Origin: a virus
Direction: 5' to 3' (one strand)
DNA: 25,710 nt
Virus record (IMG/VR): IMGVR_UViG_3300030406_004467
Span: 1 to 25,710 of that record
Part shown: positions 8,077 through 19,500 of the stretch, piece after piece
Numbering within the stretch: the first letter of the stretch is position 1
Layout of the letters: every line of letters starts with the position of its first letter
Position numbers and translations under genes: made by a program
The notes under the pieces: generated by a model
The model's input: the letters and a program-made list of their open reading frames with translations, nothing else
Database searches by the model: none
What the model was told of the DNA's origin: nothing

Positions 8077-8796
8077 TTAACTCCATTTACCATTTTTTTT
8101 AATTTTCTCTCCCTGCTCGTCAAAGGAAGCTCTAAGTTGCTTGTAGAGGTTAGGGTCTTTCTCCTCTATCAAACTAACAGCGACTTTGTTTTGTTTCCAA
8201 AATCGGTGTAATGATTCTTTGTTGTCACAATCAACAACAAAAGTTTGAAATATTTCTAGCAGTTGCTCTACTGTATTCTTCCCTGCTTTTACTTCGCCAG
8301 TGGGACTGACAATCTTAAAGGGATGCTCAACAGTGTCAGGTGATGTAAACACTGTAACATCATCTTGTTTAGTATTTTTATTTCCCTGCACGGTAGTGGC
8401 ATCGCCATCATCATCAGTCTCTGGGTCACATTCTAAGTTAAGCATAGACTGTAAAAGATACCTACGCATATAGGAAATCCCTGATCCAATGGCTTGACTC
8501 CCTTTTTTAGTATCATCAAGACAGCTAACTTTACTCTCTAACATTTCTCCAGAATTTAAATGGTGTAGTCTGCATACCAATAAATTTTCAACCCTATTAT
8601 CCACGACAATAGCATCAGTGGTAAAAGATATATGCACTCCATTATCTTCTAAAGGTTTTTTGCAGGCATTGAATACATCAAGAAGAGTAGAGTATTTGCT
8701 ACCTATATGAGGGTTCTTCCCATTCTTCTCTAGCTTTTCAAATCCTTCACCTCTGGCTTTTTCTATAGCCAAAAATATTTCTTTGTTTTCACTCAT
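8077..8796 (-). CDS. erf: ERF-family single-strand DNA annealing protein
   Basis: 239 residues from the preferred start. The segment KKGSQAIGSGISYMRRYLLQSMLNLECDPETDDDGD (about residues 97-132) is the hallmark of the ERF superfamily: a 'Q-IGS-I-Y-RRYLL' helix followed by an acidic 'DDDG' stretch. ERF proteins form rings that anneal complementary single strands and drive phage recombination and circularisation. The C-terminal third is charged and variable, as usual for the family. An upstream ATG at 8808 is possible, but the ATG at 8796 has GGAG six bases before it and overlaps the upstream stop in ATGAGTGA. It works with the PD-(D/E)XK nuclease of the same operon in an exonuclease/annealase pair. 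Confidence 0.9.
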   Translation of the reverse strand: MSENKEIFLAIEKARGEGFEKLEKNGKNPHIGSKYSTLLDVFNACKKPLEDNGVHISFTTDAIVVDNRVENLLVCRLHHLNSGEMLESKVSCLDDTKKGSQAIGSGISYMRRYLLQSMLNLECDPETDDDGDATTVQGNKNTKQDDVTVFTSPDTVEHPFKIVSPTGEVKAGKNTVEQLLEIFQTFVVDCDNKESLHRFWKQNKVAVSLIEEKDPNLYKQLRASFDEQGEKIKKNGKWS

Positions 8797-12906: not shown

Positions 12907-12936
12907 TTGACAAAAAGCTTAAACATACGATATATA
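12907..12936 (+). promoter_or_regulatory. Candidate sigma-70 promoter
   Basis: Perfect -35 TTGACA at 12907-12912, then an 18-nt gap, then TATATA at 12931-12936. A start near 12943 would give an RNA of only about 70 nt before the terminator at 12978-13014, with no ORF inside. It could therefore be a small-RNA promoter or a chance match. Confidence 0.4.
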
Positions 12937-12977
12937 GTGTTTGAGAATACCTATTAGTTTTTTCACTCTGATAAACT

Positions 12978-13014
12978 TGGACTCCTAGATTAATTTTAGG
13001 AGTCCATTTTTTTT
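12978..13014 (+). terminator. Rho-independent terminator
   Basis: TGGACTCCTA (12978-12987) pairs perfectly with TAGGAGTCCA (12997-13006) around a 9-nt loop, and eight T residues follow. It is the strongest plus-strand terminator in the window and would end the rusA/primase-helicase transcript. Confidence 0.85.
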
Positions 13015-13093: not shown

Positions 13094-13141
13094 GAATCCC
13101 CTATGCTGCGTGACCTGTAAAAGGGAATCAAAAAAAAGAGC

Positions 13142-13174
13142 AAAAAAAAACCCCATGCAAAACGCATAGGGTTT
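13142..13174 (-). terminator. Rho-independent terminator of the candidate RNA
   Basis: On the minus strand 13174-13164 pairs with 13158-13148 (11 bp including one G-U) around the loop GTTTT, and the T run continues to 13142. It would end both the small RNA and any read-through from the module genes. Confidence 0.8.
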
Positions 13175-13298
13175 AGTTGGGAGGAAAGAGCCTGCTAAAA
13201 AATAGGGGTAGGCATTGTCTAGGATAGTGTCGGAAACCTACCCCCAAGTTTTCCAATAGGCAAGGGAGTGAGACCCTAGCAGGCAGTTGCCTATTGGT
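13142..13298 (-). ncRNA. Candidate structured small RNA (~157 nt) with pseudoknot and anti-Shine-Dalgarno loop
   Basis: No ORF fits here, but both ends and the fold are well defined on the minus strand. Stem 1 pairs 13297-13288 with 13262-13253 (10 bp, perfect). Stem 2 pairs 13284-13277, inside the stem-1 loop, with 13197-13190 further downstream (8 bp, perfect), giving a pseudoknot. A mini-hairpin GGG-UCUCACU-CCC sits at 13276-13264. A third hairpin pairs 13244-13237 with 13212-13205 (8 bp). A terminator closes the RNA. The terminator stem has one G-U pair on the minus strand that would be C-A on the plus strand, which fixes the orientation. A promoter lies directly upstream (13304-13331). 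The loop UCUCACUCCC complements the GGAGUGA ribosome sites of the neighbouring module, so a translational regulator is proposed. No known RNA family was recognised. Confidence 0.7.
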
Positions 13299-13303
13299 GT
13301 TCT

Positions 13304-13331
13304 ATAATACATTAAGAAGATTTTTTCTCAA
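13304..13331 (-). promoter_or_regulatory. Candidate sigma-70 promoter for the structured RNA
   Basis: On the minus strand TTGAGA (13331-13326), a 16-nt gap and TATTAT (13309-13304); each hexamer matches the consensus at five of six positions. The predicted start near 13297-13298 falls at the first base of stem 1. The -35 lies in the last codons of the upstream gene. Confidence 0.6.
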
Positions 13332-13788
13332 TGCTTTCGGTAATCTTTTTGTACTTGGCTAATTCTCCACGACTCCTAAATACAAAAAATTTATTGGCAA
13401 ACTTTACTAGATCACTATTCTTTAACTCTTTTAAATTTTTATAATCAGATAAAGAAAAAGTATTAATCAATTCTAGTATTTGTTCCAGAGTATATGTTTC
13501 ATCTTGATCGGAGTCAGACTCCCATAAATGAACCGTACCAATTTCTATAGCTAATTCTTTTCGTATTCTAGCCATCTTACTTTCATTAAGTACTTTTAGT
13601 TTCTCTTGTCTTTCTTCTCTGTTACGAATCCAGAGTTCCCTTTTGAGAAACTTTATTTCTCTCTCTAGTTTATGTTCTCTGTAGTCTCTAATTTCCATAT
13701 GTTCTCTATGTATACGTTTATGAAAATCTAACTCAGACTCTTCAAACTCTCTATTAAGATCGGCTCTTGATAATTTTCTTACTGCCAT
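13312..13788 (-). CDS. Highly charged coiled-coil protein, unknown function
   Basis: 158 residues. Residues about 8-85 are almost entirely charged and helical (many Arg, Glu, Lys with heptad-like Leu/Ile), predicting a long coiled coil. The C-terminal part (TLEQILELINTFSLSDYKNL onward) looks like a small helical domain. No family recognised. The start has AGGGAGAGA upstream and overlaps the end of the upstream gene by 10 nt, so the two are probably coupled. It is the last gene of the accessory module; the structured-RNA promoter begins in its final codons. Confidence 0.7.
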   Translation of the reverse strand: MAVRKLSRADLNREFEESELDFHKRIHREHMEIRDYREHKLEREIKFLKRELWIRNREERQEKLKVLNESKMARIRKELAIEIGTVHLWESDSDQDETYTLEQILELINTFSLSDYKNLKELKNSDLVKFANKFFVFRSRGELAKYKKITESIEKKSS

Positions 13789-14135
13789 TCTAATCTCTCC
13801 CTAAAGCTAAATTCTAATACTCCAAAATCTTTTCTATCTGGTGGCAATTGGTTTATCTGTAACCCTTTCAATAATGCGTAGTTTATAAAATGATAGAAAG
13901 AGTCATTAGACTCATCTTCATTAACAAAAGCTAAATCAACTTCAAAAGCATTAGCGATTATTGAGTCATTGATAATTACGTTACCATCATCTTTATAATC
14001 CGATAGGGCAATGTGCGCCCTATCAGTTATAAAAAGCATAAAATTATATTTAGGAGTCATATAAGTATCTGGTAAAGTATCTCTCAGAATATCTAAGCCA
14101 GATGACTTAAACCTTTTCTTTATATATGCGCTCAT
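13779..14135 (-). CDS. Hypothetical protein of accessory module
   Basis: 118 residues, alternating predicted strands and helices (TPKYNFMLFITDRAHIALSDYKDDGNVIIND), acidic overall, with no motif I can name. Cytosolic, with no signal or membrane segment. The start has AAGGAG at good spacing (the site reads GGAGTAA rather than the GGAGTGA of its neighbours). It follows the upstream 73-aa gene by 4 nt and overlaps the next gene by 10 nt. Confidence 0.7.
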   Translation of the reverse strand: MSAYIKKRFKSSGLDILRDTLPDTYMTPKYNFMLFITDRAHIALSDYKDDGNVIINDSIIANAFEVDLAFVNEDESNDSFYHFINYALLKGLQINQLPPDRKDFGVLEFSFRERLEWQ

Positions 14136-14139
14136 TAAA

Positions 14140-14361
14140 TTACTCCTTAACTATATCTTTTCCATAATCGTAAAAATAATTTTTTATAAAATTTTCAACA
14201 TCAATTTCTAATTGGGTTAAGTCATAAGAAAGACTATCTTCAATAGATGTTTCTTTGTTGATAGCACCAATATCAATTTTTCTTTTACGCAACTCTTCAA
14301 CATCAATATTTATTTCTGTTACAAATTTTTGTTTATGAAACTTTGGGTTTAATATTTTCAT
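14140..14361 (-). CDS. Small acidic protein of accessory module
   Basis: 73 residues from the ATG at 14361. A TTG two codons earlier at 14367 is also possible and sits closer to AAAGGAGTGA; the ATG is ten bases from GGAG. The sequence (KFVTEINIDVEELRKRKIDIGAINKETSIEDSLSYDLTQLEIDVENFI) suggests strand plus helices. No family recognised. Its leader (14362-14500) is highly structured. Confidence 0.65.
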   Translation of the reverse strand: MKILNPKFHKQKFVTEINIDVEELRKRKIDIGAINKETSIEDSLSYDLTQLEIDVENFIKNYFYDYGKDIVKE

Positions 14362-14500
14362 AATCAATTCACTCCTTTTTGTTTTTGTTATCGATACTAA
14401 TTGTATCTATATAGAGATAAAAAAGTTACCATATAACTTTTTGCAACCCTTGTATGGTACTCAGGTTGCAAAAGATTTATCTCTATAAGGTTACAATTAT
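14362..14500 (-). promoter_or_regulatory. Structured leader with nested inverted repeats and GGAGTGA ribosome site
   Basis: An outer 24-nt inverted repeat (14398-14421 with 14476-14499, 21 of 24 positions pair) encloses a perfect dyad copy (14420-14442) and a TTGCAACC/GGTTGCAA hairpin (14441-14448 with 14464-14471). A small hairpin GATAC-taatt-GTATC (14393-14407) follows. The ribosome site reads AAAGGAGTGA on the minus strand (complement at 14369-14378). Confidence 0.65.
14420..14442. repeat. Dyad repeat copy 4 (AAAAAGTTA-N5-TAACTTTTT)
   Basis: Perfect 9-bp arms, loop CCATA, nested in the larger inverted repeat of the leader of the 73-aa gene and about 60 bases beyond the stop of the upstream membrane-protein gene. 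Confidence 0.75.
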
Positions 14501-14689
14501 TTAAGCATCTGCACCCCATGCGCCAACCAATATTCCTAGGAAGTCAATCAGCAAAAAAACAGATAAACCATTTAGTTTATCAATCTCTCCATAAAACATG
14601 GCATGGGTTACAAAGTAAGCTAGAGGGAAAAAAGCTATAGCAGAGACTATAAAAATTTTCCCAAAGATATTTCGATTCCACATTTCCAT
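14501..14689 (-). CDS. Small two-helix membrane protein
   Basis: 62 residues. Two hydrophobic segments are visible: FGKIFIVSAIAFFPLAYFV (about 10-28) and LSVFLLIDFLGILVGAWGA (about 43-61). I chose the ATG at 14689, which overlaps the stop of the preceding 35-aa gene in TAATG. A longer reading from TTG further upstream would run out of frame across that gene and has no ribosome site. Such proteins in phages include holins and immunity or membrane-remodelling factors; nothing here decides between them. Confidence 0.65.
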   Translation of the reverse strand: MEMWNRNIFGKIFIVSAIAFFPLAYFVTHAMFYGEIDKLNGLSVFLLIDFLGILVGAWGADA

Positions 14690-14796
14690 TAGTAGTCCCC
14701 CAAATAAAGAGAGAGGACTACCCAACAAGCAATTATAGAACCAATAAGAAGAACAAAACTTATACAACTTAATATCTCTTCAAAATCATATTTCAT
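14689..14796 (-). CDS. 35-residue single-span membrane peptide
   Basis: A very short ORF beginning MKYDFEEILSC, then one hydrophobic span (ISFVLLIGSIIACWVVLSLYL) and a short GDY end. Its ATG lies one base after the stop of the 272-aa gene, with GGGGGAA upstream, and its stop overlaps the next ATG (TAATG). The perfect packing between two genes and the clean membrane span are the evidence. It may act with its neighbour as a two-component membrane pair. Confidence 0.6.
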   Translation of the reverse strand: MKYDFEEILSCISFVLLIGSIIACWVVLSLYLGDY

Positions 14797-14797
14797 T

Positions 14798-15616
14798 TTA
14801 TTCCCCCAATATAGACTTCATTACTTTAGCATTGGTTCTTCTGCTCAATAAACTTTCTGCTTTGTGAACATTGTGACCAACTCCAAAAGTATAATTTCCT
14901 GCTATGTCCTGCTTAATCAAAACTACTTGATCGGATAATAATTCTGGGGAAAAAGCATAGCCATATTCCTTATCTCTTTTCTTATATGCAGGGTCTAAAA
15001 GTGTTCCTCTAAAACAACTAATATTTTTCTCTTTGAGATATTTGTTATCTTCTTTTACTAGGTTAATAGTAAAATAGGTTCTTCTTCCAGACGGTATATA
15101 ATGAAGATTATTATCAGCTATCTTTTTATGCCAAGTAATAGGAATAGTAATTTTATGGTTATTGTAATAACTACTCTCTCTGGTGGCAGTTAGAGAACAA
15201 GCAAAACCATGTTTGTCAGTACAAACTTCTGCTTTTAATTCTCCAGATGCTCTAGGAAAAAATCTGGCAAAAAGATTTTCAAAACGACTTTTAGCATCTT
15301 CTTTTGCTTTTTCGTAAACTGATAGTTTCTTTTCTGCTTTTGAAAAATTTTCCCTAACACTCCTAATAAATTCACATAGGGTAACTATTCTTTCTAAGGA
15401 ATCCATAATATTAATACCTATACTGCCATTACAAGAATCTCTAAAATTTTGTAACCATTCTTCTACAGATTTGTTAGGCGAATGTAACTTTAATTCTGCT
15501 CTTCCATAATGATCTTTTTTAGTATTAGTAATATGCTTTCTAACTTCAATGGGTACTTTATGAAGAGTACACAAGAAGTCTATTTCTTTATTAAGTTTAT
15601 TTACTAATGTTTCCAA
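14798..15616 (-). CDS. Hypothetical 272-residue protein of accessory module
   Basis: Residues about 1-120 are helical and charged, with a coiled-coil-like stretch (SVRENFSKAEKKLSVYEKAKEDAKSRFENL). The second half is rich in beta-type sequence, with 'HKITIPITWHKKI', 'RRTYFTINLV' and 'SDQVVLIKQDIAGNYTFGVGHNVHKAESLLSRRT'. The ending looks like a compact fold seen in some phage proteins beside MoxR/VWA pairs, but I cannot name it. The start is TTG, six bases after GGAGTGAAAA; no ATG is nearby. It heads a three-gene cluster with the two membrane peptides. Confidence 0.7.
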   Translation of the reverse strand: METLVNKLNKEIDFLCTLHKVPIEVRKHITNTKKDHYGRAELKLHSPNKSVEEWLQNFRDSCNGSIGINIMDSLERIVTLCEFIRSVRENFSKAEKKLSVYEKAKEDAKSRFENLFARFFPRASGELKAEVCTDKHGFACSLTATRESSYYNNHKITIPITWHKKIADNNLHYIPSGRRTYFTINLVKEDNKYLKEKNISCFRGTLLDPAYKKRDKEYGYAFSPELLSDQVVLIKQDIAGNYTFGVGHNVHKAESLLSRRTNAKVMKSILGE

Positions 15617-15724
15617 TTTTCACTCCTTTAATAAATTGTATGGGAACAACCCCAAAAAGAATAAAAGAACCTTATTGCTCTTTTACTCTTCCAGAAGTTG
15701 TTAGGGGGGTAAACCCCCCCAACA
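15617..15724 (-). promoter_or_regulatory. Intergenic leader: G/C hairpin, U-tailed hairpin, GGAGTGA ribosome site
   Basis: On the minus strand, two bases after the VWA gene stop, a hairpin of GTT plus six G pairs with its complement (15700-15723). A second hairpin follows (15684-15677 with 15670-15663, 8 bp with a wobble that pairs only on the minus strand) and a U-rich stretch resembling a terminator. The ribosome site AAAGGAGTGA (complement 15620-15629) precedes the TTG start. Confidence 0.65.
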
Positions 15725-16921
15725 TTATTTAATATGAATAGTCTGACCAAAGGGCGCAGGCAATCCATTCTCATTTACAGATACCCAAAGAACTGGATAG
15801 GCAGGGGGTTCTTTTGGATAATCCCAAATTTCCATATCTGAAAATATTATAAGCTTATCTATTTCCATCTGCTCTTTTTCTATGTAGTCAAATAATGGTG
15901 CTACATTAGTTCCCCCTCTTCCTTTAATATCAAGCTTCTCAATAATCTCTCCCTTATCGAAAACTTGTACCTTGTCTTCTTTGACGTTACCATCAAAAGG
16001 AATTACTGTAACCTGCTCTGGGGAAAACTTTTCAGATATGTAGTTTAATTCTGAAAAACCTTTTTGTAATTCCTTGTCACTAACAGAAGCAGATTGATCT
16101 TGACCCACAACCAGATGACCAGAACCAAAGCGATCAGAAGTAGGGTTAAGAACATCTAAGACTTCAAGAGCAACTTTATGTATTCTCTTATAGGAATAGT
16201 CTTCTGGTTGCTCTCCTCCAACAAACTTTTCTAGTTCTTCTTCCCATAATACTTGAGGTTCTAAAAGCTTATCTATAATTCCTTGTAGTTCAGCGGGAAT
16301 TGTACCCCTACCCCTATACTGACTAGCAGTAACAAGAATATCATCTATGGCTCTTTCTTGTCTCTTGATATCAGACTCTGACAAAGAGGTTCCATCTGAT
16401 TTAGTTGGTTCGATAACGGCTCCCCATTCTGGCATTTCTCCAGAACCAGAGCCACCATTACCCCCCTCTTGTTCCTCTTCATCTTGAATACGACTATAAC
16501 AAGTTTCTGCTCTAAGGGTTTTATATTTCTCTTCAAATAAACAATCTTTTGGCAATGCAAGCTTACCCCCATTGATACCTACTGCATCTAGTACAATAGG
16601 GTTAATTACATAATCGCAAGCATAGTTCCATTTCTTGTGATCTCTGTTCTTCATTCTTAATGGGTGTTTCAAAATAATGTGTAAAACTTCATGAGCAAAT
16701 ACCCCTGCTAATTCTTGTGCGTTTATCTTCTGCACAAACTCCCTATTCCAGATGATGCTAGTTCCATCAGTAGCCATAGTTGAAACTCTTTCATTATCTT
16801 CAATAACTTTAACACTCATTAAGATAGACCCATAAAAGGGAAACTCTTTGTTGAGATATGTTTTGGCTCTAGCCAAAGCAAAATCAACATCTTCTTTTGA
16901 TACTTCATCTAATAAGTCCAT
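15725..16921 (-). CDS. VWA-like / zincin metallopeptidase-domain protein (DUF2201-type), MoxR partner
   Basis: 398 residues. The N-terminal half contains AHEVLHIILKH (His77, Glu78, His81) and WNYACDYVIN (98-107), the signature of the DUF2201 putative metallopeptidase domain. A low-complexity acidic/glycine linker lies near 145-162. The C-terminal half is VWA-like, with DQSAS (275-279) as the metal-site DxSxS motif, GRGGTN (334-339) and FSDME (360-364). In bacteria and large phages these proteins are encoded beside MoxR AAA+ ATPases and are thought to form chaperone-like complexes that remodel or load metal into a client. Here the ATPase is the next gene upstream. Whether the zincin is active is unknown. 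The start ATG has GGAGTGA upstream. Confidence 0.85.
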   Translation of the reverse strand: MDLLDEVSKEDVDFALARAKTYLNKEFPFYGSILMSVKVIEDNERVSTMATDGTSIIWNREFVQKINAQELAGVFAHEVLHIILKHPLRMKNRDHKKWNYACDYVINPIVLDAVGINGGKLALPKDCLFEEKYKTLRAETCYSRIQDEEEQEGGNGGSGSGEMPEWGAVIEPTKSDGTSLSESDIKRQERAIDDILVTASQYRGRGTIPAELQGIIDKLLEPQVLWEEELEKFVGGEQPEDYSYKRIHKVALEVLDVLNPTSDRFGSGHLVVGQDQSASVSDKELQKGFSELNYISEKFSPEQVTVIPFDGNVKEDKVQVFDKGEIIEKLDIKGRGGTNVAPLFDYIEKEQMEIDKLIIFSDMEIWDYPKEPPAYPVLWVSVNENGLPAPFGQTIHIK

Positions 16922-17048
16922 TTTTTCACTCCTTTAATTATTAGATTGTCACAAGATTTATTATCTTGTTTGGTACACAAAAAAAGTTACATAGTAACTT
17001 TTTGTATACTAAGCAAAATAATGGGGGGGTATGACCCCCCCAAAGTAT
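16922..17048 (-). promoter_or_regulatory. Intergenic leader: G/C hairpin, dyad, hairpin, GGAGTGA ribosome site
   Basis: Seven G and seven C (17023-17029 with 17035-17041) form a hairpin just after the MoxR stop. Next come the dyad copy (16981-17003) and a perfect 7-bp hairpin ACAAGAT/ATCTTGT (16951-16957 with 16963-16969). The ribosome site AAAGGAGTGA (complement 16926-16935) ends the leader. Confidence 0.65.
16981..17003. repeat. Dyad repeat copy 5 (AAAAAGTTAC-ATA-GTAACTTTTT)
   Basis: The strongest copy: 10 bp perfect with a 3-nt loop, and flanks (TACAC/GTATA) that extend the pairing further. Located in the leader between the MoxR and VWA genes. Confidence 0.8.
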
Positions 17049-18146
17049 TTAAACAAACAAGTCCATATTTTGTGAACCGTCTTTATTAGAGTTTCTTAAC
17101 CAACTTAATAAATCTTTGTTCTTCTTCATTTCCTTGTTTTGTCTAACAATATCCATAATGGCAATGCCTGCATATTCCTTTTGGGGAATACGATCTATAT
17201 AGGTAATAATATTTTTCATATTACTATTGTTAGCTTTTCCTGCTACTGCACCGATCAAAGCATATAAAACGTCTGGTTGCTCTGGTATCTTTGCAGTCGT
17301 TGGGTTTTGAATTAAGTTATCCAGATTCATAAACTCTGGAACATTCTTAATTATTTTTAAGAAAGCAGTAAAATCTTTCATGGCAGGCTCTCCAACTTGA
17401 CCAGATATTAACTCCCTTATTATGTGGGGAATATCTGAACTAGAAAACAAGTCAGAAAAATTAAACTTTAATATATTGGCTACTCTTTCCCAACTTCTAG
17501 GGGTAGGGTTAGAGTCTTGTGAGGGGTCGTTTACACAATAAAACTGCTCTCTGGCTCTAAGATATGCAATAACTTTGAAGTCACATTTTTTAGTAGCCAT
17601 ATAGTTACAAGTTGCTTCTCTGTTAGGCTCAATGTTGAAATAGGTTAGACAATCTTTTAAATGACTAGGGAGTCTATTTACCCCTGCTTTATCTTGTAAC
17701 CTATTGCCTGCACAAACTACTGACCAACCGTCTGGAAGATGATGTTCCCCAACTCTTCTTTCATTTACCAACTGCCTACAAACATTAAGAACTGCTGTAG
17801 GTGCTTGTGGTAATTCATCTAGGAACAATACACCAGTTTTAAACCCATTGGCTACCTGCTTATCAATAGCAACTTTCCAATCTGGTGTTGCAACATGAAC
17901 AGACTTTCTATCTTGTGAAGGTATTCTTTGACCCCCCAATTCAGTTGGGTCTACTTGTGCAACAACCAAAGAGAAGAACCCCCTCTTTGTTTCTAAGCAG
18001 GCTTGATAGCCAGATGCAGTCTTTCCTAGTCCTTGCATACCTACAATATAGGGAACTATCCTAGTAGCATCTGTATCGCCTTTAGAAAGCGACTCATTGT
18101 GATTTAAGGTTGCTATTAAAGCTTTTTTACACTCTGTTATATTCAT
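17049..18146 (-). CDS. MoxR-like AAA+ ATPase
   Basis: 365 residues. Walker A GMQGLGKT (36-43), Walker B VLFLDE (106-111), sensor-1 Asn148 in CAGN and the following 'NRLPSHLKDCLTYF' region (157-170) match the MoxR branch of AAA+ proteins. 'DPTELGGQRIP' (66-76) matches the usual 'D--DL-G---P' segment. The C-terminal part is a helical lid (about 185-330). MoxR ATPases act with VWA proteins to remodel target complexes; the VWA-like partner is encoded directly downstream. Phages of large and medium size carry such pairs (often mislabelled CobS/CobT) without a proven role. The start ATG has AAAGGAGTGAAAA upstream. Confidence 0.9.
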   Translation of the reverse strand: MNITECKKALIATLNHNESLSKGDTDATRIVPYIVGMQGLGKTASGYQACLETKRGFFSLVVAQVDPTELGGQRIPSQDRKSVHVATPDWKVAIDKQVANGFKTGVLFLDELPQAPTAVLNVCRQLVNERRVGEHHLPDGWSVVCAGNRLQDKAGVNRLPSHLKDCLTYFNIEPNREATCNYMATKKCDFKVIAYLRAREQFYCVNDPSQDSNPTPRSWERVANILKFNFSDLFSSSDIPHIIRELISGQVGEPAMKDFTAFLKIIKNVPEFMNLDNLIQNPTTAKIPEQPDVLYALIGAVAGKANNSNMKNIITYIDRIPQKEYAGIAIMDIVRQNKEMKKNKDLLSWLRNSNKDGSQNMDLFV

Positions 18147-18232
18147 TTTTCACTCCTTTATGTTTTATGAATATGATACCTAAAATTGGTATCTCTTAGG
18201 GGGTTAATCAAAACCCCCTATTAGATAACAAC
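18147..18232 (-). promoter_or_regulatory. Intergenic leader: G/C hairpin, GATACC hairpin, GGAGTGA ribosome site
   Basis: TAGGGGGTT (18197-18205) pairs perfectly with AACCCCCTA (18212-18220). A second hairpin GATACC/GGTATC lies at 18175-18180 with 18188-18193. The ribosome site AAAGGAGTGA (complement 18150-18159) precedes the MoxR start. Confidence 0.65.
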
Positions 18233-18961
18233 TTACATAGGGTTATTGTCTAAATCTGCTTGTTGATAGTTATCTGCAAGCTTTCCCAATTGGTCAGAAA
18301 CTTCTGCTACTTTTTCTTGAGTCTCTAGTTCATCTTCATAGACTTCAATAGTCTCTTTAAGATCACTTAAAAACTTTTCTCTAGCTACAAGAGCAGACTC
18401 TAAACGTCTTTGAAAATCTTCCAACTCTTCTTCATTTAAACCCTCTTTGTAACCAGAACCGTCTTTCTTTGGTTTACCAACAATCTTAGCAACTAAAGTA
18501 TCTAACTTATCTAGTTCCTCTTCTTTGTTAGGGTTAAACTCTTTAACAAGTTTAGCTTCTGAAGTAATACCCATAGCAGTTAATTTATCTCTAACTAATT
18601 CCGCAGTGCAATTAGAAGAGGGTAAGGGTTCGTTAGTCTTAAACCATTTATGAACCCATTGAGTCTTTTCCCTTTTCTTCTTGTTAGAAGCATCTGAAAA
18701 ACCAACATCTGATAACTGCTTTTTAAAAGTATTCATATCTCTAGTAGATATTTTGTCAGCAGGGTAAGAAGCATAAGCAGATATTAGTTCACAATAAATA
18801 TCAATGTTCCCTGCATTAATAGCATTAGAATTGTTTTTATTATCTTCACGCATATTTGTAATACTTGAATTAATAGAACCTAATCTAGTTGCTACATCAT
18901 CTGCTAAATACTCTTTACCTAGTTGTACTTTTTTAGTCTTTTTTGTTTTTGATTTAGTCAT
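18233..18961 (-). CDS. Helical protein upstream of MoxR/VWA pair, unknown function
   Basis: 242 residues from the ATG at 18961, chosen because GGAGTGA lies directly upstream; an in-frame start 13 codons earlier lacks one. The N-terminus is very basic (TKSKTKKTKKVQLGKEYL), the middle contains 'REKTQWVHKWFKTNEPLPSSNCTAELV', and the C-terminal 100 residues are acidic and strongly coiled (EELEDFQRRLESALVAREKFLSDLKETIEVYEDELETQEKV). Its place is where other phages encode a DUF3150-like third partner of MoxR/VWA, but I cannot confirm that homology. It may be an adaptor or client. Confidence 0.7.
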   Translation of the reverse strand: MTKSKTKKTKKVQLGKEYLADDVATRLGSINSSITNMREDNKNNSNAINAGNIDIYCELISAYASYPADKISTRDMNTFKKQLSDVGFSDASNKKKREKTQWVHKWFKTNEPLPSSNCTAELVRDKLTAMGITSEAKLVKEFNPNKEEELDKLDTLVAKIVGKPKKDGSGYKEGLNEEELEDFQRRLESALVAREKFLSDLKETIEVYEDELETQEKVAEVSDQLGKLADNYQQADLDNNPM

Positions 18962-19039
18962 TATTTTCACTCCTCTATTATCTGATAAATGACCCTGCAA
19001 AGCAGGAATCTAACCCCCAAAAGATAGGGGGTTAGTTTG
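18962..19039 (-). promoter_or_regulatory. Intergenic leader: G/C hairpin, CCTGC hairpin, GGAGTGA ribosome site
   Basis: CTAACCCCC (19010-19018) pairs perfectly with GGGGGTTAG (19027-19035). A second hairpin CCTGC-AAA-GCAGG spans 18994-19006. The ribosome site on the minus strand reads AGAGGAGTGA (complement 18967-18976), ahead of the 242-aa gene. Confidence 0.65.
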
Positions 19040-19411
19040 CTACTTTGATTTAGATTTACGAACATCTTTCAAAAGGTTCTCGACTTGAGTCCAAGTCCTA
19101 GGGGTAACATTTATAGGTTGTACTTCATCTGCAAACATTATTCCTTTTGGTTTACCTAAAATTGGTACTGCTTTTTCTATTGCTTTTAAGGTTGCTCTAG
19201 CAGATACAACTACACCCCAAAGATAATGGCTAGGGTGCGTATCTACATAAGGAATAGAATAATAATAAGCATCTGAATGTAATTCCTCTAGGTGTTCATC
19301 TTCAGAATTTATCCAATAATTTTTTGTATTCTCTTTCACTATAAGAGGACTTTCTAAGTCTCTTTCATTGTGATCATCATAAAATCTTTTTGGTATCTTA
19401 ATTAGTTTCAT
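19040..19411 (-). CDS. Hypothetical protein, first gene of accessory module
   Basis: 123 residues, acidic and aromatic-rich in the first half (YWINSEDEHLEELHSDAYYYSIPYV), then 'HYLWGVVVSARATLKAIEKAV' and a basic C-terminus (LLKDVRKSKSK). No domain recognised. The start has GGAGTGAGA six bases upstream, the one ribosome site in the module that is complementary over nine bases to the candidate RNA loop. It is transcribed first in the module if the promoter near 19828-19855 is real. Confidence 0.65.
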   Translation of the reverse strand: MKLIKIPKRFYDDHNERDLESPLIVKENTKNYWINSEDEHLEELHSDAYYYSIPYVDTHPSHYLWGVVVSARATLKAIEKAVPILGKPKGIMFADEVQPINVTPRTWTQVENLLKDVRKSKSK

Positions 19412-19500
19412 TTATCTCACTCCATTTTATTAATGCTAGATAGGTAACAAGACTCGCCTGCTACCTACCTAAAATTAATAGGGGGGAATGAACCCCCCTA
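19412..19500 (-). promoter_or_regulatory. Leader of first module gene: G/C hairpin, TAGGTAGGTA hairpin, GGAGTGAGA ribosome site
   Basis: TAGGGGGG (19479-19486) pairs with CCCCCCTA (19493-19500). TAGATAGGTA (19437-19446) pairs with TACCTACCTA (19462-19471), with one wobble. The ribosome site GGAGTGAGA (complement 19415-19423) is next to the start. The G/C hairpin here has no gene directly upstream, unlike the other four. Confidence 0.6.

Follow-up and report, generated by a model that had tools for sequence, protein, structure and literature searches.

A conserved pseudoknotted RNA at the end of a phage operon, predicted to pair with a ribosome-binding word shared by many of the operon's genes

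The minus strand of the window (the whole 25,710-nucleotide stretch of virus record IMGVR_UViG_3300030406_004467 analyzed here) carries at positions 13302-13141 a pseudoknotted RNA of ~160 nt, with a small hairpin loop complementary to a ribosome-binding-site (RBS) word that recurs along the operon ending there. That this structured RNA is a conserved element is close to certain, and that it is transcribed is, judging from its sequence, very likely. It is probably, though by no means surely, a phage small RNA (sRNA) that represses its own operon through the shared RBS tag; this is the best explanation of the patterns described below, which come from a limited number of independent lineages. 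The original prediction of a new structured phage RNA with a pseudoknot and its own promoter and terminator is partly supported, and the likely RBS target of the hairpin loop, together with a second, convergent RNA candidate, is new relative to it.

The conserved unit, which reads GAACACCAAUAGGCAACUGCCUGCUAGGGUCUCACUCCCUUGCCUAUUGG... on the minus strand, runs from GAACACC to the T-run of an intrinsic terminator (13141..13302), and is matched by the covariance model R1 at 63-184 bits in the window and its relatives. It folds as an H-type pseudoknot with an inner hairpin, followed by the terminator, and all of the three helices and the terminator stem proposed earlier are present. Stem P1 (CCAATAGGCAA/TTGCCTATTGG, 13297-13287 with 13263-13253) measures 11 bp. 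Stem P2 (GCCTGCTA/TAGCAGGC, 13284-13277 with 13197-13190), of 8 bp, joins the P1 loop to the strand 3' of hairpin P4 and thereby forms the pseudoknot, while P4 itself (GGGGTAGG/CCTACCCC, 13244-13237 with 13212-13205; element 13205..13245; 8 bp) is inserted in the third pseudoknot loop. The mini-hairpin P3/L3 (GGG-UCUCACU-CCC, 13264..13276) has a loop that reads UCUCACUCC in the window (13273-13265) and UUCACUCC in most relatives; this is the anti-RBS element, the reverse complement of the operon RBS motif GGAGUGA(A/G). Directly 3' of P4 lies a terminator-like U-tract (13197..13202), U-rich in all relatives, which is a possible Hfq site. The single-stranded linker UUUCCUCCC (13179..13187) is a second, general anti-Shine-Dalgarno stretch, and the intrinsic terminator (13141..13174; stem 13174-13148 plus T-run) has a hairpin that is kept in relatives.

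Two features of P4 can be recorded here. Its apical loop, UUUCCGACAYAAUCC (window about 13236-13213, minus strand), is kept in the window, L002, L003, L006 and L015, and is shorter in L004, L005 and others. P4 and its U-tract (13245-13197, minus strand) are shaped like an intrinsic terminator inside the pseudoknot, and a shorter RNA ending at that U-tract is possible.

None of 200 dinucleotide shuffles folds as well as the minus strand (z = -4.6, computed without the pseudoknot), and 0 of 2000 shuffles reached the P2 pairing that joins the P1 loop of the window sequence to its 3' region. Chance often produces crossing stems of 8+8 bp within 180 nt, so that a pseudoknot is weak evidence unless covariation supports it. 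Related viral contigs were reached through the primase-helicase gene that adjoins the RNA, and the RNA was then sought by BLASTN, by pattern and with R1. Fifteen further viral contigs (L002-L007, L015, L057, L058, L063, L065-L067, L079, L100), which represent 12 further distinct sequences, carry it downstream of the primase gene and on the strand opposite to that gene. L001 also carries it, being near-identical to the window (99.8% across the intergenic region), and L031 has a cut-off copy. No credible match was obtained at the other loci examined, including those of primase relatives of 58% identity or less, or with R1 in the first 50 kb of Pelagibacter phage HTVC027P and phage 023Pt_psg01. 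A DNA search of a phage collection for relatives gave nothing beyond a short match, due to chance, to the record of a gut phage, and alignment of the primase against genome contigs gave no relative. Weak R1 matches in L022 and at window 16978-17094 (17-18 bits) are apparently chance matches to terminator-like sequence, L022 being the one inspected.

Compensatory changes, which the original prediction had proposed to look for, back P1, P4 and the pseudoknot stem P2. In the model-based alignment A5, whose 13 distinct sequences include that of the window, 94.0% of cells are paired and 16 pairs (51 cells) have changed on both sides, which 0 of 500 shuffles equalled; P1, P3, P4 and the terminator belong to the model, which biases their counts towards structure, and P2 is outside it. 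Pairing falls to about 53% when the partner is slid by one column. Both-side changes occur at five pairs of P1 and six of P4, and at three positions of P2 by hand count (two in the A5 count). For example, P2 reads GCCUGCUA/UAGCAGGC in the window and UACCUGU/ACAGGUA in L067, it gains a paired UA/UA insertion in L057, and one of its positions varies among C-G, U-G and U-A. When whole strands were swapped, P1 and P4 paired better within than between sequences (0/2000); the result for P2 alone is less clear (162/2000), because its core CCUG/CAGG hardly varies. Since homologues show compensatory changes, we conclude that the fold, including the pseudoknot, is not due to chance.

Over P1, P2 and P4, G-U cells outnumber A-C mismatches 14 to 2 on the minus strand, which supports the original choice of that strand as the functional RNA. 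The same bias speaks against an element that works as DNA, for instance a single-stranded replication origin, a reading that the strong intergenic hairpins adjoining the primase gene would favor; the terminators, and GGAGTGA at the RBSs of same-strand genes, count against it as well, and we hold it to be very unlikely. The order of strands (P1, P2, P3, P1', P4, P2'), singled out earlier as unusual, is that of the HDV ribozyme, and P1 begins near the presumed 5' end, as might be expected of a self-cleaving ribozyme of the HDV type trimming the 3' end of the operon. Such ribozymes, which include the theta ribozymes of phages, require a catalytic C at the first J4/2 position (PMC10879173), and that base is U in the window and A in most relatives. 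Further differences are a P1 that is too long (10-11 bp), a poly-U junction, a P3 that is missing from the L065 group and hence dispensable, and the lack of any match to an HDV family; the ribozyme was rejected as a candidate, and we give this reading almost no credence.

The predicted regulatory role concerns the operon itself. From 19411 to 13312 on the minus strand, its start regions repeatedly use the RBS AAAGGAGUGAAAA, and six genes preceded by GGAGTGA (19423, 18973, 18156, 16932, 15626, 14375; operon 13312..19423) are the predicted targets. The L3 sequence of relatives, UUCACUCC, is the exact reverse complement of the operon RBS GGAGUGAA. In the window, gene 19411 has GGAGUGAGA, which the loop UCUCACUCC fits over 9 nt; the exact 9-nt match is found at this one RBS only (19423), and the others match over 7 nt. 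Across eight loci with L3, GGAGTGA is present at 27 of the 43 Shine-Dalgarno-bearing genes of the RNA-side operon vs. 1 of 72 other genes (Fisher p = 4e-14); as the phages are related, this and the other statistics overstate independence. GGAG is followed by TGAA in 24 cases, and the next commonest words occur twice each. The GGAGTGA-tagged genes represent 13 unrelated protein families, so that inheritance of the genes does not by itself account for the tag. In counts over entire contigs (35-52 kb), GGAGTGAA words lie mostly on the operon side and strand, and one further such word per contig is, in most contigs, the complement of L3 itself. Predicted duplexes with L3 are stronger at operon starts than at other starts (-10.2 vs. 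-7.6 kcal/mol, p = 5e-6), with a weak contrast in L005. For the linker UUUCCUCCC, general complementarity to phage starts is no better than in shuffles.

The operon includes an AAA+/MoxR-type ATPase (17049-18146) and a metallopeptidase-VWA protein. The latter (window 15725-16921, minus strand) carries the PHROG 1314 label HNH endonuclease; Pfam assigns it a DUF2201 metallopeptidase and a VWA-like domain, which fits the AAA+ neighbor.

A second short RNA candidate may read the same tag from the other side. Between the primase gene and its terminator, and convergent with the pseudoknot RNA, the plus strand has a promoter-like sequence TTGACA-N18-TATATA (12907..12936; layout similar in relatives), the anti-RBS stretch UUUUUUCACUCUGA (12958..12971) about 15 nt downstream of the expected start, and then a terminator (12978..13014), the whole candidate spanning 12907-13014 and its predicted transcript ~12942-13014. 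It carries UUUUUUCACUCU, complementary to the same operon RBSs as L3, and ten of its letters, UUUUUCACUC, pair with GAGUGAAAAA. Its predicted duplexes are likewise stronger at operon starts than at others (-9.5 vs. -7.4 kcal/mol, p = 3e-4), with weak contrast in L002 and L058. A pattern search for the motif returned no contig beyond those already known.

The L065 group provides a natural comparison for these features. Its RNA keeps the fold without P3/L3, and four contigs of the group (25-50 kb) have no GGAGTGAA word. The plus-strand anti-RBS motif, kept in all L3-bearing phages, reads CACUAUGA there, with CACTATGA for the stretch that corresponds to window 12958..12971. Among homologues of the VWA gene, those of the window and L006 have AGGAGUGAAAA where the L065 group has AGGAGUUAAC, and the tag is missing from this gene in some L3-bearing phages as well. 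In the primase tree this sister group falls outside the L3-bearing phages, except that the position of the window lineage has weak support. The presence of loop, tag and plus-strand motif together in one set of phages, and the absence of all three in the other, may therefore amount to one joint evolutionary event.

These observations bear on a competing view, namely that the element is a structured operon end and nothing else, with the pseudoknot and two terminator-like hairpins stopping transcription and protecting the mRNA 3' end, and with an accidental match between L3 and the RBSs. The location of the RNA between convergent operons and just past a stop codon, the terminator-like form of both P4 with its U-tract and the final hairpin, and the retention of the fold without L3 in the L065 group are all consistent with this view. 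It leaves unexplained the 8-nt complementarity to an operon-specific RBS word, the same complementarity in the plus-strand candidate, and their joint absence from the L065 group, and we consider it unlikely, albeit the most serious of the alternatives.

Under the favored reading, repression through the RBS tag, the end of the minus-strand operon would yield a regulatory RNA, which would either have its own start just past the final stop codon or be processed from the 3' UTR. The pseudoknot would display the P3 loop as a seed, and the loop (UUCACUCC in most relatives, UCUCACUCC in the window) would base-pair with the tag GGAGUGA(A/G) before many genes of its own operon. Such pairing in the cell would cover the Shine-Dalgarno sequence and lower translation, giving negative feedback. 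The second short RNA, transcribed from the plus strand toward the first and carrying UUUUUUCACUCU, would target the same tag.

The transcript could arise by either of these two routes. The proposed promoter sequence, TTGAGA-N16-TATTAT (13304..13331, minus strand), does exist and is strong in the window, where it ranks in the top 0.1% of sites by sigma-70-like score; it is poorly conserved, with sites at the same position ranking in the top ~1% in L002, L057 and L058, where it is still strong, and just in the top 5-29% in other relatives, and is thus weak in most of them. Promoter-like sites in the region number 3, against 2.5 expected. The upstream gene, which differs from phage to phage, has its stop codon no more than about 10 nt from the start of the GAACACC unit. 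Because the RNA starts a few nucleotides after this stop codon, 3' UTR processing is a live alternative, and we regard it and an own promoter as equally possible.

No Rfam family was matched at the gathering threshold, in agreement with the original view that the RNA belongs to no known family. The best Rfam match is suhB/mmgR (E 7e-5 for the region), with RF00519 scores of 31.1 bits in the window, 29.6 in L006 and 24.4 in L003 and L065 (threshold 41 bits). The alphaR8 sRNAs of this family (MmgR, SisA-D) have the core UUUCCUCCCU (PMC12559287). Nine of its ten letters recur here as UUUCCUCCCA in the window and several relatives, and as in alphaR8 the single-stranded anti-Shine-Dalgarno UUUCCUCCC is followed by an intrinsic terminator. 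An RNA that mimics alphaproteobacterial alphaR8 (MmgR/SisA) through this stretch and silences host mRNAs would also suit the nearest named terminase relatives, which include Pelagibacter phages. The sub-threshold score, the degraded core in L005, L006 and the L057 group, and a pseudoknot in place of the weak upstream hairpin all weigh against it. Family membership was accordingly rejected and a purely host-directed function seems improbable; an alphaR8-like role may exist as an additional, not exclusive, function.

Other known sRNAs offer the closest parallels for parts of the model. Location at an operon 3' end with an intrinsic terminator, and complementarity to translation initiation regions of the same operon, are two features that this RNA shares with 3' UTR-derived autoregulatory sRNAs. 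In Vibrio cholerae, OppZ and CarZ (PMC7398697) likewise come from operon 3' ends, pair with translation starts of their own operons and repress them, as is predicted here; the present RNA differs in its phage origin, its pseudoknot, a loop seed directed at many tag-sharing RBSs, and the second convergent candidate. The c4 antisense RNA of phages P1 and P7 (reviewed in PMC12197685) also blocks a phage RBS, with complementary sequences thought to lie in loops; c4 acts on ant mRNA, whereas the RNA described here is predicted to address many unrelated genes. RydC of enterobacteria (PMC4337610), a regulatory sRNA that needs its pseudoknot for stability, exposes a 5' seed, in contrast to a seed in a hairpin loop inside the pseudoknot; Rfam scans gave no match to RydC.

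With its well-defined fold, the RNA represents a new structured family not covered by Rfam. Most phage regulatory RNAs known so far act on one or a few transcripts, and here a whole operon appears to be addressed via an RBS word. Whether the word GGAGUGA(A) before 13 unrelated gene families, with two convergent RNAs that read it, constitutes a phage-encoded post-transcriptional regulon that new genes join by adopting the tag is, in our estimate, an even question. If so, a phage would have a simple means of bringing a variable gene set under a single post-transcriptional switch, and targets could be predicted by reading the RBS.

Different structures were also seen in related phages. In L008 (about 8131-8210, minus strand), as well as in L012, L014 and relatives, which are phages of 58% primase identity, another compact H-type pseudoknot, of 10+10 bp (GCATACAGAG / AAGTGACAGG), sits at the corresponding position downstream of the primase gene, right after an upstream stop codon. 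Read on the minus strand, its variants in L013 and L014 would form G-U pairs. Operon ends with pseudoknots may be a recurring feature of these phages. Intergenic regions of L002, L006, L057 and other loci also contain scattered palindromic hairpins (AAAGTTATATAGAACTTT / AAAGTTCACTTGAACTTT).
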